Of a stretch of 33,213 nucleotides of DNA, positions 25,075 to 29,391 are shown piece after piece. The notes below the pieces were generated by a model, which was not told the origin of the DNA, searched no databases, and saw only the letters and a list, made by a program, of their open reading frames with translations. Every line of letters starts with the position of its first letter. Position 1 is the stretch's first letter. The DNA is from Bacteroidota bacterium (lineage in GTDB: Bacteria; Bacteroidota; Bacteroidia; CAILMK01; JACPUW01). Location of the stretch: contig JAGQWA010000004.1 in assembly GCA_020437725.1 (NCBI GenBank), forward strand, positions 1 through 33,213, given 5' to 3'. The position numbers were made by a program, and so were the translations under genes.

Positions 25075-26142
25075 ATGAAACAAATTACTGAACATAAAAC
25101 AGGCCATATAGAGTGGCAGAGTCCAAGCAATATTGCCATTGTTAAGTATTGGGGCAAGCACGGTAACCAATTGCCAGCAAACCCTTCGTTAAGTTTTACG
25201 CTTAGCACTTCTTACTCTCAAACGTCAATGGAATTTGACGTTAATCCAGACCGCAAAAAGTTTGACCTAGACTTTGAGTTTGAAGGCAAGCCATCACCAA
25301 AATTTGCGGAGCGGATTCAAAAGTATTTTGAGAGAAACGCCGCAGATTTTCCATACCTGAACAATCTAAAACTATATTTAAAAAGCAGGAACTCATTTCC
25401 ACACTCGGCTGGTATTGCTAGTTCGGCTTCAGCTATGAGTGCACTGGCCATGTGCATTGCTAGTATGGAGAGCAGGTTGTTTGGTGGTTTTCCTGAGAAA
25501 AGCATGTTTAGAATGCGCGCGTCTCATTTGGCAAGATTGGCATCTGGTTCGGCTGCACGTTCAGTTTATGGTGGTTTGGTTGCGTGGGGTGAGTCTGAGT
25601 TTATTGCCAACTCGTCTGATTATTATGCCGTGCCAGTTAACGAAAACCTGCACGATACTTTCAAGTCGTTTCATGATACCATTCTAATTGTTGACGCCGG
25701 TGAAAAAGCGGTAAGTAGCTCTGCCGGCCATAGTTTAATGACCAAGCATCCATATTCTGAGATGCGCTATTTCACGGCTCGCCAACACATGGAAATGCTC
25801 AAAGAGATTATGGAACAAGGTGATGTTGAAGAGTTTGGCAAAATCTTGGAGAACGAAGCACTCACACTTCATGGATTAATGATGAACTCTGATCCTTCAT
25901 TCATTCTCATGAAACCCAACACGCTCAAGATTATTGAGATTGTTAGAGAAGTGCGGGAGTCGCAGAAGTTCCCTTGGTATTTCACGCTAGATGCTGGCCC
26001 AAATGTGCATCTCATGTATCCGCACGAAGTAGCCGATGAAGCACGCAAGCTCATAACCGAACTTTTAGTACCTTACACCCAAGGTGGCCAAGTGCTTTAC
26101 GATCAGGTAGGTGCAGGCCCACGTAAAATTCAGGGTGAATGA
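25075..26142 (+). CDS. mvaD: Diphosphomevalonate decarboxylase
   Basis: ATP-dependent decarboxylation of mevalonate 5-diphosphate to IPP. The 355 residues fit. The N-terminal signature SPSNIAIVKYWGKHGNQLPANPSLSF (16-41) holds the conserved YWGK. The phosphate-binding stretch is PHSAGIASSASAMSALA (109-125). SGSAARSVYGGLVAW follows, and LDAGPNVHLMY gives the family's Asp. Its stop shares bases with the DUF6922 start (ATGA), so the downstream toxin-antitoxin pair is translationally linked to it. Confidence 0.93.
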   Translation: MKQITEHKTGHIEWQSPSNIAIVKYWGKHGNQLPANPSLSFTLSTSYSQTSMEFDVNPDRKKFDLDFEFEGKPSPKFAERIQKYFERNAADFPYLNNLKLYLKSRNSFPHSAGIASSASAMSALAMCIASMESRLFGGFPEKSMFRMRASHLARLASGSAARSVYGGLVAWGESEFIANSSDYYAVPVNENLHDTFKSFHDTILIVDAGEKAVSSSAGHSLMTKHPYSEMRYFTARQHMEMLKEIMEQGDVEEFGKILENEALTLHGLMMNSDPSFILMKPNTLKIIEIVREVRESQKFPWYFTLDAGPNVHLMYPHEVADEARKLITELLVPYTQGGQVLYDQVGAGPRKIQGE

Positions 26143-26444
26143 CAGAAGCAGAATTAAGAGCCGCATTACAACCCCATACTTTTTGGGATACCGAGATTGA
26201 TCGAATCGACTTTGATAAAAACGCTCGGTTTGTGATTGAGCGCGTTTACACCAGAGCAGATATGCCAGAGATATGGGCGGTTCAAAAATTCTACGGTCGA
26301 AAAAAGGTAGAAGAAGCATTAAAGCAAGTTCGCTGCATGGACCATTTAACCCTTAATTGGGTATCAAAGTCGTTAAACATTCCATTAGAAGAATTTAGAT
26401 GTTACGAAGGGAAGCCGTTAGACCGGAGCTATTTAGGCTATTAA
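26139..26444 (+). CDS. DUF6922 protein, likely antitoxin
   Basis: A 101-residue soluble protein. The order FWDTEIDRIDFDKNARFVIERVY...RADMPEIW...YGRKKVEEALKQVRCMDHLTLNWVSKSLNIPLEEFRCYEGKP matches the DUF6922 domain, which I recall as the usual partner of AbiEii-type nucleotidyltransferases. It starts inside the mvaD stop (ATGA) and its last 46 bases overlap the next gene. The overlap covers the conserved FRCYEGKP end, so the arrangement looks selected rather than accidental. Antitoxin role is inferred from the partner. Confidence 0.78.
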   Translation: MTEAELRAALQPHTFWDTEIDRIDFDKNARFVIERVYTRADMPEIWAVQKFYGRKKVEEALKQVRCMDHLTLNWVSKSLNIPLEEFRCYEGKPLDRSYLGY

Positions 26445-27025
26445 TCGACATTTTTGATTCTGATTATTTTCCAGATTTTTTCTTGGTAGGCGGAACTGCG
26501 CTTGCGCTTAAACTAGGGCACAGAGAATCTATTGATATTGATCTTTTCACTGACAAAGAAATTCATCCTGAGCAGATTTTAGAGAAGATGGCCGATTTTG
26601 GTGAATTAACCTTAATTGGAATGAATCCAGGTGGCTTAAATGTATTGATTGATGGAATTAAAATTGATTTCGTTAGACATCCGTACACAATTCTAGAGCC
26701 AATTGAAAAGCACAACAGCGTTAGAATGCTTTCTAATATTGACATTGCTGCTCAAAAGCTTCACGCCATTGTTAGAAGGGGAAGCAAAAAGGATTTTATT
26801 GATCTCTATTACTTGCTTAACCTGTTTTCTGTAAAGGAATTGATTAGCGCTTATGGCAAAAAGTATAACCATACGTTGTACGAATCTTTTGTTTTAAAAA
26901 GCATGACTTATTTCGATGATGCAGATGAGCAAACCATGCCCAAGATATTTGATGGCACTACTTGGCAAGAGATAAAACAAGGCATATCTCAGAAATGTAA
27001 CAAACAGAGTAATTCAGGGTTTTAA
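26399..27025 (+). CDS. AbiEii/AbiGii-type nucleotidyltransferase (putative toxin)
   Basis: A 208-residue protein of the AbiEii (type IV-like) toxin family. The nucleotidyltransferase signature FFLVGGTALALKLGHRESIDIDLF (28-51) has the GG, HR and DxD elements, and the third acidic residue is in GIKIDFVRHP. The C-terminal part has NIDIAAQKLHAIVRRGSKKDFIDLYYLL, the conserved helix of the family with KDFxDLY. AbiEii members add nucleotides to targets such as tRNA and cause growth arrest; this member's target is unknown. The start ATG 26399 lies in the DUF6922 gene. rlmN begins 2 bases after its stop. Confidence 0.85.
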   Translation: MLRREAVRPELFRLLIDIFDSDYFPDFFLVGGTALALKLGHRESIDIDLFTDKEIHPEQILEKMADFGELTLIGMNPGGLNVLIDGIKIDFVRHPYTILEPIEKHNSVRMLSNIDIAAQKLHAIVRRGSKKDFIDLYYLLNLFSVKELISAYGKKYNHTLYESFVLKSMTYFDDADEQTMPKIFDGTTWQEIKQGISQKCNKQSNSGF

Positions 27026-28062: not shown

Positions 28063-28086
28063 CGCATCTCCAAACCACAACACCCA

Positions 28087-28140
28087 GTGGCTACGCTCTG
28101 TGTAGTGACAAATTATCCCGAGCGTCTCCGGTGCGAGTTC
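28087..28140 (+). repeat. REP-like repeat element, copy A
   Basis: A hairpin (10-base arms 28087-28096 and 28100-28109, loop TCT, one mismatch) is followed by a conserved tail containing GCGTCTC and GTGCGAGTTC. The 51-base core 28090-28140 matches 29233-29283 at 44 positions, in the same orientation. A weaker hairpin at 28148-28168 follows. Confidence 0.75.
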
Positions 28141-28179: not shown

Positions 28180-29166
28180 TTACACTTTCTTAATCTGATA
28201 AACCGTATTCCGCTTATCGCCTTGTTTAACAATAAGTTTTGCGTCTAGTGCTAGTTTTAAATCTCTACTTGCTGTAGCGGTAGAAATGTTCTTGAACATG
28301 AGCATATAATCTTTTCTGGTGAAAGATGTTTTTGAATGCTGTTCCAAGAAAAGCTCAATGCGGTCGGTTGCTGTTTTAGTATTGCCTTGTTGATTTAGAA
28401 AAACGGCTAGAGACTCATTAATTGCTCCTAAAAGAAACTCAATGGTAACTGTTGAGTTGCCCATTTTGTCTGATTGTTCAAGTGCTGAGTAGTAGGCTTC
28501 TTGGTTTTCTCTTATCACATTTTCAAACGGTAAATAGGTAAAAACGGGATTGAAATTGGATAGGATTATACTTTGCCACAACCGAGCCATTCTTCCGTTT
28601 CCGTCAGAAAAAGGATGAATGAAGGTGAGTTCATAATGTGCAACACAGCTTATAATGAGAGAGTGATCATTGCTTTTCTTTAAGTATTCAAAAAGGGCAT
28701 TCAATAAAGCCTTTAAATTGTTGGCAGGAGGAGCCAGATGCTTCAATTCATTGCCCTTAACTATACCAACTGAACCGGTTCTCAGTTTGCCAGCATCTTT
28801 CATTAAACCAGCCATTAAAAGTTTGTGTGCTTTTAAGAAAGATGGCAGCGATGCTGGTTTGAAGGTTGAAAGTTGCACATAAGTTTTAATGGCGTTTTCT
28901 ATTTCTAAAATGTCTTTCTGTGGCGCCAATACTCTTTTGCCTTCTAAAACTGCAGTTACTTGTTTTTGGCTGAGTGTATTGCCTTCTATGGCCAATGTAG
29001 AGCCTATGGTTTTAACCCTGTTGGCTTTTCTTAGTTGCGGTGAAGGTTTAATTAGGAGCGAAGCTTTTATTTCCCCCAGCTTCTCAGAAATTGAAGCAAT
29101 CAATTGCAGAATTTCTGGCGTAATGTCAAAAGGTGGTTTCGTAATACTATCATTTGATACTATCAC
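28180..29166 (-). CDS. Fic family protein with N-terminal inhibitory motif and C-terminal winged helix
   Basis: A 328-residue Fic protein, expected to attach AMP (or a related nucleotide part) to a protein. The catalytic motif HPFSDGNGRMAR is complete at 184-195 (H184). The inhibitory motif TLAIEG at 57-62 (E61), fitting (S/T)xxxE(G/N), is N-terminal, so this is a class II, self-inhibited Fic protein. The end (about 278-328, TSFTRKDYMLMF...TATASRDLKLALDAKLIVKQGDKRNTVYQ) reads as a winged helix that could bind DNA. The start is GTG 29166; no ATG lies in the conserved N-terminal part. Two of the four palindromic boxes overlap its first codons. REP-like elements flank the gene on both sides. Confidence 0.88.
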   Translation of the reverse strand: MIVSNDSITKPPFDITPEILQLIASISEKLGEIKASLLIKPSPQLRKANRVKTIGSTLAIEGNTLSQKQVTAVLEGKRVLAPQKDILEIENAIKTYVQLSTFKPASLPSFLKAHKLLMAGLMKDAGKLRTGSVGIVKGNELKHLAPPANNLKALLNALFEYLKKSNDHSLIISCVAHYELTFIHPFSDGNGRMARLWQSIILSNFNPVFTYLPFENVIRENQEAYYSALEQSDKMGNSTVTIEFLLGAINESLAVFLNQQGNTKTATDRIELFLEQHSKTSFTRKDYMLMFKNISTATASRDLKLALDAKLIVKQGDKRNTVYQIKKV

Positions 29167-29209
29167 GAATATAGCACACCCTTAATGATACTATCAAATG
29201 ATGCTATTA
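29142..29209. promoter_or_regulatory. Four palindromic operator-like boxes at the fic start
   Basis: The palindrome TGATACTATCA occurs perfectly at 29155-29165 and 29186-29196. Near copies sit at 29142-29152 (10 of 11) and 29199-29209 (9 of 11). The boxes form two pairs with 13-base periodicity, 31 bases apart. A minus-strand TTTG-N21-TATATTCG promoter candidate lies among them. Binding by the Fic winged helix is an inference. Confidence 0.65.
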
Positions 29210-29229
29210 TTGCAACGCTCTAGCTCTTA

Positions 29230-29283
29230 GTCGCTACGCTCTGCGTAGTGACCAACAATCCCTGGCGTCTCCCGTGCGAGTTC
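29230..29283 (+). repeat. REP-like repeat element, copy B
   Basis: GTCGCTACGC at 29230-29239 pairs with GCGTAGTGAC at 29243-29252 around a TCT loop, giving a 10-pair stem with one G-T pair. The conserved tail TGGCGTCTC and GTGCGAGTTC follow. It is in direct orientation with copy A across the Fic gene. Confidence 0.8.
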
Positions 29284-29307: not shown

Positions 29308-29391
29308 GAGACACCCTTGATAGCGGTTATGCCGCAGAGCAGCGCAACTGAGACACCCTTGATAGTGGTTACGCCGCGGAGCAACGCAACT
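29308..29391 (-). repeat. Tandem 42-base repeat, REP-like family, inverted
   Basis: Two 42-base units, 29308-29349 and 29350-29391, differ at four positions. Read on the minus strand each unit begins with a GTTGCG...TCTGCGGC or equivalent hairpin-like arm with a TCT or TCC loop and ends in GGGTGTCTC. That layout matches copies A and B, placing these units in the same family in opposite orientation. Confidence 0.75.

Follow-up and report, generated by a model that had tools for sequence, protein, structure and literature searches.

The window examined here, a stretch of 33,213 nucleotides, contains a fic gene with a group of palindromic boxes at its start (Table 1). On both sides the gene is flanked by a 55-nt dispersed repeat in direct orientation; this repeat is present in seven copies in the genome and is 85% identical at the fic flanks. 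A 42-nt repeat in two tandem copies lies between fic and an enoyl-CoA hydratase gene. About 1.1 kb from fic, a gene for an AbiEii-like nucleotidyltransferase (Pfam E = 6e-19) is found beside that of a small DUF6922 protein, and the two probably constitute an AbiE-like toxin-antitoxin pair.

Table 1. Coordinates of the features at the fic locus and in its surroundings
Feature	Position	Strand	Remarks
AbiEii-like nucleotidyltransferase	26139-27025		beside small DUF6922 protein
55-nt dispersed repeat	28086-28140
fic gene	28180..29166	-	predicted class II Fic AMP-transferase with C-terminal winged helix; putative GTG start
Winged-helix part of fic	28183..28371	-	about residues 266-328; from secondary structure of the model
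Operator 1 (promoter/start-codon operator)	29142..29165	-	coding strand TGATAGTATCA-AA-TGATAGTATTA; 1 mismatch to TGATAnTATCANNTGATAnTATCA
Box TAATACTATCA	29142-29152	+
Box TGATACTATCA, first copy	29155-29165	+
-7-like element TATATTCG	29166..29173	-	1 mismatch to TAnnTTTG; directly abuts operator 1
Operator 2 (upstream, extra copy)	29186..29209	-	coding strand TAATAGCATCA-TT-TGATAGTATCA; 2 mismatches to TGATAnTATCANNTGATAnTATCA
Box TGATACTATCA, second copy	29186-29196	+
Box TGATGCTATTA	29199-29209	+
55-nt dispersed repeat	29229-29283
42-nt repeat, two tandem copies	29308-29391

The Fic Protein

The fic product of 328 residues matches Pfam family PF02661 (Fic) with E = 2.8e-17 and 63.8 bits against a cut-off of 24. 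By its motifs, the protein is a class II, self-inhibited AMP-transferase. The active site, HPFSDGNGRMAR, is intact and fits the pattern HPFx(D/E)GNGRxxR, with H184, P185, F186, D188-R192, and R195 invariant among 32 aligned sequences. The N-terminal inhibitory motif of class II is present as TLAIEGN, which fits (S/T)xxxE(G/N), and its residues E61, G62, and N63 are likewise invariant among 32 aligned sequences.

A winged helix at the C-terminus had been proposed in a sequence-only reading of this DNA, and the AlphaFold model of the protein (mean pLDDT of 89), in which the Fic domain is followed by a winged helix, bears this out. The helices of the latter span residues 266-276, 284-290, and 296-308, the last of which (ATASRDL...) is the predicted recognition helix, and the wing strands are formed by residues 312-315 and 322-325. 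Residues R284, A299, R301, D302, L303, G316, and Y323 of this domain are conserved in the alignment. The Pfam scan of the protein identified the Fic domain only, with no model matching the winged helix, and a phmmer search with the winged helix alone gave no convincing solved relative by sequence. A Foldseek search with the model returned Dde_2494 (4rgl), CbFic2 (8cil), and SoFic (3eqx). The PADLOC profile for the SoFic defence system matches residues 13-327, nearly the full length of the protein, with E = 3.7e-38; the NCBIfam SoFic equivalog NF046030 scores 45.4 bits, far under its curated cut-off of 550 bits.

Palindromic Units at the Start of fic

Four boxes were found at the start of the fic gene, two of them exact and the remaining two with one and two mismatches. 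They form two pairs, and the within-pair spacing is 13 bp for both, in agreement with the 13-base periodicity noted in the sequence-only reading. The repeated boxes are real and palindromic, but the conserved unit is a 24-bp pair and not the independent 11-bp box. Each pair makes up one 24-bp palindrome, TGATAnTATCA-WW-TGATAnTATCA, and these two palindromes are denoted here as operator 1 and operator 2, with an offset of 44 bp between them. All 35 orthologues that share this type of winged helix have the site at the place where operator 1 lies.

Across 2000 first-order Markov sequences, each 550 bp long, no match to the pattern had fewer than five mismatches, compared with one and two in the window. 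When the whole 3.84-Mb genome was searched for the 24-bp pattern with up to three mismatches, as the earlier reading had suggested, the two fic sites and one three-mismatch site within a coding region were obtained; the reversed control pattern gave no matches in this genome. The window genome thus holds no other convincing 24-bp site, and the idea of a larger regulon there was rejected. One extra copy of TGATACTATCA occurs at C166, without a partner box.

The GTG at positions 29166-29164 is the only usual in-frame start codon near operator 1. The orthologues begin with MKPP directly after the 3' end of the operator, and the corresponding residues encoded in the window are TKPP: within positions 29139-29166, the codon homologous to the ATG of the orthologues is ACG, and the GTG start of the window gene is therefore uncertain. 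If the -7-like element is used, the putative GTG would lie just upstream of the transcription start. Two of the boxes had been placed inside the coding sequence; this holds with the GTG start, but the orthologues start just after the operator.

Conservation of the Operator with One Type of Winged Helix

Homologues were collected by protein searches of 60, 396, and 395 genomes, without use of the boxes, and their start regions were scanned afterwards. The operator was found in 35 of 35 homologues that possess a winged helix with ISxATASRDL (36-57% identity; window excluded), where it has 0-5 mismatches and overlaps the start codon or immediately precedes it. It was found in none of the 15 homologues with another C-terminal domain, nine of which came from the genome searches and six from plasmids and a phage contig. 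The Fic-part identity of the operator-less group is 41-51%, compared with 36-39% in the distant operator-bearing group. Conservation near orthologues had been named as a check on the earlier reading, and the boxes are indeed kept at the orthologue starts, where they track the winged helix. A Bergeyella plasmid relative from the same subfamily, which was found later and serves as an out-of-sample check, has a broken frame and a perfect operator.

In a tree of the Fic part with midpoint rooting, the operator-less proteins constitute one well-supported clade nested among the operator-bearing ones, so that as few as one or two evolutionary changes may underlie the association of the operator with the winged helix. 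The Fisher p value of 4e-13 for this association (35/35 versus 0/15), which ignores kinship, therefore overstates the contrast. The uniform presence of the operator down to 36% identity is a stronger argument than the p value. In the tree, L005, L179, and probably L035 carry wrong labels, which resulted from an error in the search pattern.

Back-translated peptides of the window protein retrieved no relative when used as queries. One short, unverified phage contig encodes a Fic relative that differs at the C-terminus and lacks the operator. The genes at L223, L226, and L227, which belong to the sister Fic clade whose C-terminal domain is different, are located inside plasmid type I restriction-modification operons, adjoining hsdS and hsdR, and are without an operator of their own.

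Distribution of the Exact Site

A scan of 84,980 species genomes for the exact 24-mer gave at least 120 loci. In 25 of 395 Bacteroidia genomes, the exact 24-mer was found once each, and the reversed control was found in none. There were no exact matches in viral contigs, and viral carriage was rejected on this ground. The set of exact loci considered here numbers 145 among the matches listed (the species-genome loci, at least 120, together with the 25 Bacteroidia loci).

Among the matches listed, a fic frame opens within 200 bp at 101 of the 145 exact loci. At about 14 further loci, fic is frameshifted, deleted, or cut by the contig, and fic or a remnant of it is found at about 115 of the 145 loci among the matches listed. 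The fic-bearing hosts include Bacteroidota, Bdellovibrionota, Pseudomonadota, and Calditrichota, and the gene and its operator thus occur together across phyla. No family of neighbouring genes is shared by as many as four of 77 loci. Families of small downstream open reading frames, which might encode a small partner, reach at most 3 of 94 loci. In view of this lack of a recurrent neighbour, a second regulator or an antitoxin linked to fic was rejected.

About 30 of the 145 exact sites, among the matches listed, are solo sites with no trace of fic adjacent to them (L075, L082, L097, L114, L128, L154, L159, L169, and about 22 more). A close fic elsewhere in the genome was absent in 16 of the 17 solo-site genomes searched for one, and the site can therefore exist without the Fic protein. 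At L075 and L169, the solo operator is located at the start codon of other genes; at L082 and L154, the flanks of the solo operator extend the palindrome; and several solo sites retain TAnnTTTG. Decayed fic genes are seen at L062, L100, and L178, where the operator and the code for the winged helix lie close together and most of the Fic domain has been lost. By comparison with these three loci, some of the solo sites could be scars of lost fic genes. Alternatively, they may be targets of another protein.

Anatomy of the Operator and Its Promoter Context

The core of the operator, ATCA-WW-TGA, is invariant in 38 of 38 unbiased sites, and the T that follows is found in 37 of 38; in these sites the outer half-sites are more variable than the core. 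In the exact loci, G and C predominate at the two box centres, whichever of them comes first. The intervals between the half-sites are 6, 7, and 6 bp, and these would be tight for winged helices on one face of the DNA; our guess is that two dimers are bound on different faces. Most relatives have one 24-bp unit and the window has two. No second full unit was found nearby in the other 37 unbiased loci, and a more distant second unit was found in 2 of 99 exact-pattern loci. The fic genes at L085 and L098 have a second full operator farther upstream, at a distance from the first of 138 bp and 233 bp, respectively.

The -7 box recognized by sigma-A of the Bacteroidota is TAnnTTTG, located at -12 to -5 (PMC9723704). 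Among Bacteroidota, a TAnnTTTG sequence that ends with the first TG of the operator is present in 71 of 98 exact loci and in 30 of 38 unbiased loci. A TTG located 19-20 nt upstream of the -7 element is enriched, and the start codons are mostly found between -1 and +14 from the end of the operator. With the operator positioned over both TAnnTTTG and the start codon, a bound protein would thus mask the -7 box together with the transcription start and the start codon. In the window, a TTG 21 nt upstream of the -7-like element falls within operator 2. Outside the Bacteroidota, TAnnTTTG is absent in nearly all of the loci examined, as expected for another sigma factor, and the promoter argument is therefore limited to the Bacteroidota.

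Proposed Function of the Palindromes

We consider it very probable that the boxes serve as operator in a loop of negative feedback, by which fic represses itself through its own winged helix. The observations behind this proposal are the sites, their conservation, their association with one type of winged helix, their overlap with the promoter, and the lack of any other convincing site in the genome. Autorepression had been suggested in the sequence-only reading, and the conservation of the operator at the orthologue starts, together with its tracking of the winged helix, argues for it. In the proposed mechanism, the C-terminal winged helix would bind the 24-bp palindrome TGATAnTATCA-WW-TGATAnTATCA, and in Bacteroidota, where the -7 element as well as the transcription start and the start codon fall within or next to this site, the bound Fic protein would block RNA polymerase. 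Repression would keep a potentially toxic Fic enzyme at a low level. Operator 2, which lies 44 bp farther upstream and coincides with the presumed -33 region, should strengthen the repression. We infer both the physical binding of Fic to the operator and the direction of the effect, which is repression rather than activation. The four half-sites would perhaps accommodate two dimers, and the loop may serve either to control toxicity or to hold the enzyme on standby for phage defence.

Other explanations of the palindromes were weighed against this proposal. An unlinked transcription factor could bind them, with fic as a member of a stress or defence regulon, and such a factor would accommodate the roughly 30 exact sites that are distant from any fic, among the matches listed, as well as the few, such as L075 and L169, that coincide with the start codon of another gene. 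We regard this as unlikely, however, since the presence of the site goes with the C-terminal winged helix of Fic and the site is found once per genome, unlike the sites of a regulon. The site also occurs in Bacteroidota, Bdellovibrionota, Pseudomonadota, Calditrichota, and further groups with no obvious common regulator, and no neighbouring gene recurs. It is similarly improbable that the winged helix binds the operator but activates fic, or that the binding of DNA chiefly switches the activity of the enzyme. The activity of CbFic2 is altered by the binding of DNA (PMC10628234), but the site described here lies on the -7 element and the start codon, a position that normally blocks the polymerase, and CccR, the closest tested case, is a repressor.

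The repeats might instead fold, in the mRNA, into a hairpin that covers the start codon and regulates translation, given that the 24-mer is able to fold on itself and is located at the start codon. We hold this to be highly improbable, and it was rejected on the covariation of the centre bases: 35 of the centre-base pairs are complementary and 47 are non-complementary G/C, when 42.9 complementary pairs are expected, and the lack of pairing covariation favours DNA recognition over an RNA hairpin. The occurrence of G or C at the box centres in either order is as expected for a DNA dyad, and the operator is partly upstream of the predicted transcription start, where it overlaps the -7 element.

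An extension of the autorepression proposal, which we offer as possible but rather doubtful, is that fic is a widespread single-gene module that has spread between phyla with its own operator and combines the enzyme, its inhibitor, and its repressor in one protein, with DNA occupancy by the winged helix coupled to the self-inhibited state of the enzyme. If this were true, loss of the operator complex, for example when an attacking phage perturbs the DNA or the pools of nucleotides, would at once lift the repression of the gene and release the enzyme.

Comparison with Known Systems

The closest solved structure, both by sequence (E = 1.4e-72) and by fold, is that of Dde_2494, a Fic protein from Desulfovibrio (PDB 4rgl). 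The sequence match covers residues 9-272 only, and the winged helix of the window protein is thus unmatched; no reported operator or function for Dde_2494 was found in the literature searched. SoFic (PDB 3eqx and 3zcn) resembles the window protein in that both belong to class II and have a winged helix at the C-terminus, in keeping with the match to the PADLOC profile, and EcSofic is toxic and defends against phage (PMC12249575). However, the window protein is far below the NCBIfam equivalog cut-off (45 versus 550 bits) and, in contrast to the SoFic-AS1 toxin-antitoxin system, no AS1-like small gene recurs downstream (at most 3 of 94 loci). In CbFic2 from Coxiella burnetii (PDB 8cil), the binding of DNA alters the enzyme (PMC10628234). 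This protein also combines a Fic domain with a C-terminal helix-turn-helix in a similar fold, but its sequence is 18% identical, and no specific operator is known for it, random DNA alone having been tested there.

The principle of a Fic-wHTH autorepressor is already known from one protein, CccR of Yersinia pseudotuberculosis, which represses its own promoter by binding to palindromes there; this negative feedback was demonstrated with a lacZ fusion, EMSA, and footprinting (PMC9755527). As in CccR, the class II Fic domain of the window protein shares its chain with a DNA-binding domain at the C-terminus. In both cases palindromes are found in the promoter of the gene itself, near the -35 and -10 boxes for CccR, and sites of the window type are kept in the relatives. 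The sites themselves differ. CccR recognizes two 10-bp repeats, AGATAATCAT-N26-ATGATAATCT, and this layout of two inverted repeats 26 bp apart is not found in the window, where the site is a compact 24-bp palindrome with four half-sites. CccR also has an N-terminal DUF4172, whereas Pfam detects just the Fic domain in the window protein. In the literature searched, we found no description of this subfamily, its operator, or a rule that connects operator and winged helix; a search with the sequence of the box gave, among the matches listed, unrelated papers only. Class II enzymes are reported to account for about 80% of Fic proteins, and the control of their expression and activity to be almost uncharacterised (PMC9755527). 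An exact operator tied to one type of winged helix across phyla turns the single case of CccR into a testable rule, and the same operator provides a DNA signature for locating the subfamily and a ready substrate for measuring the effect of DNA binding on AMP transfer.
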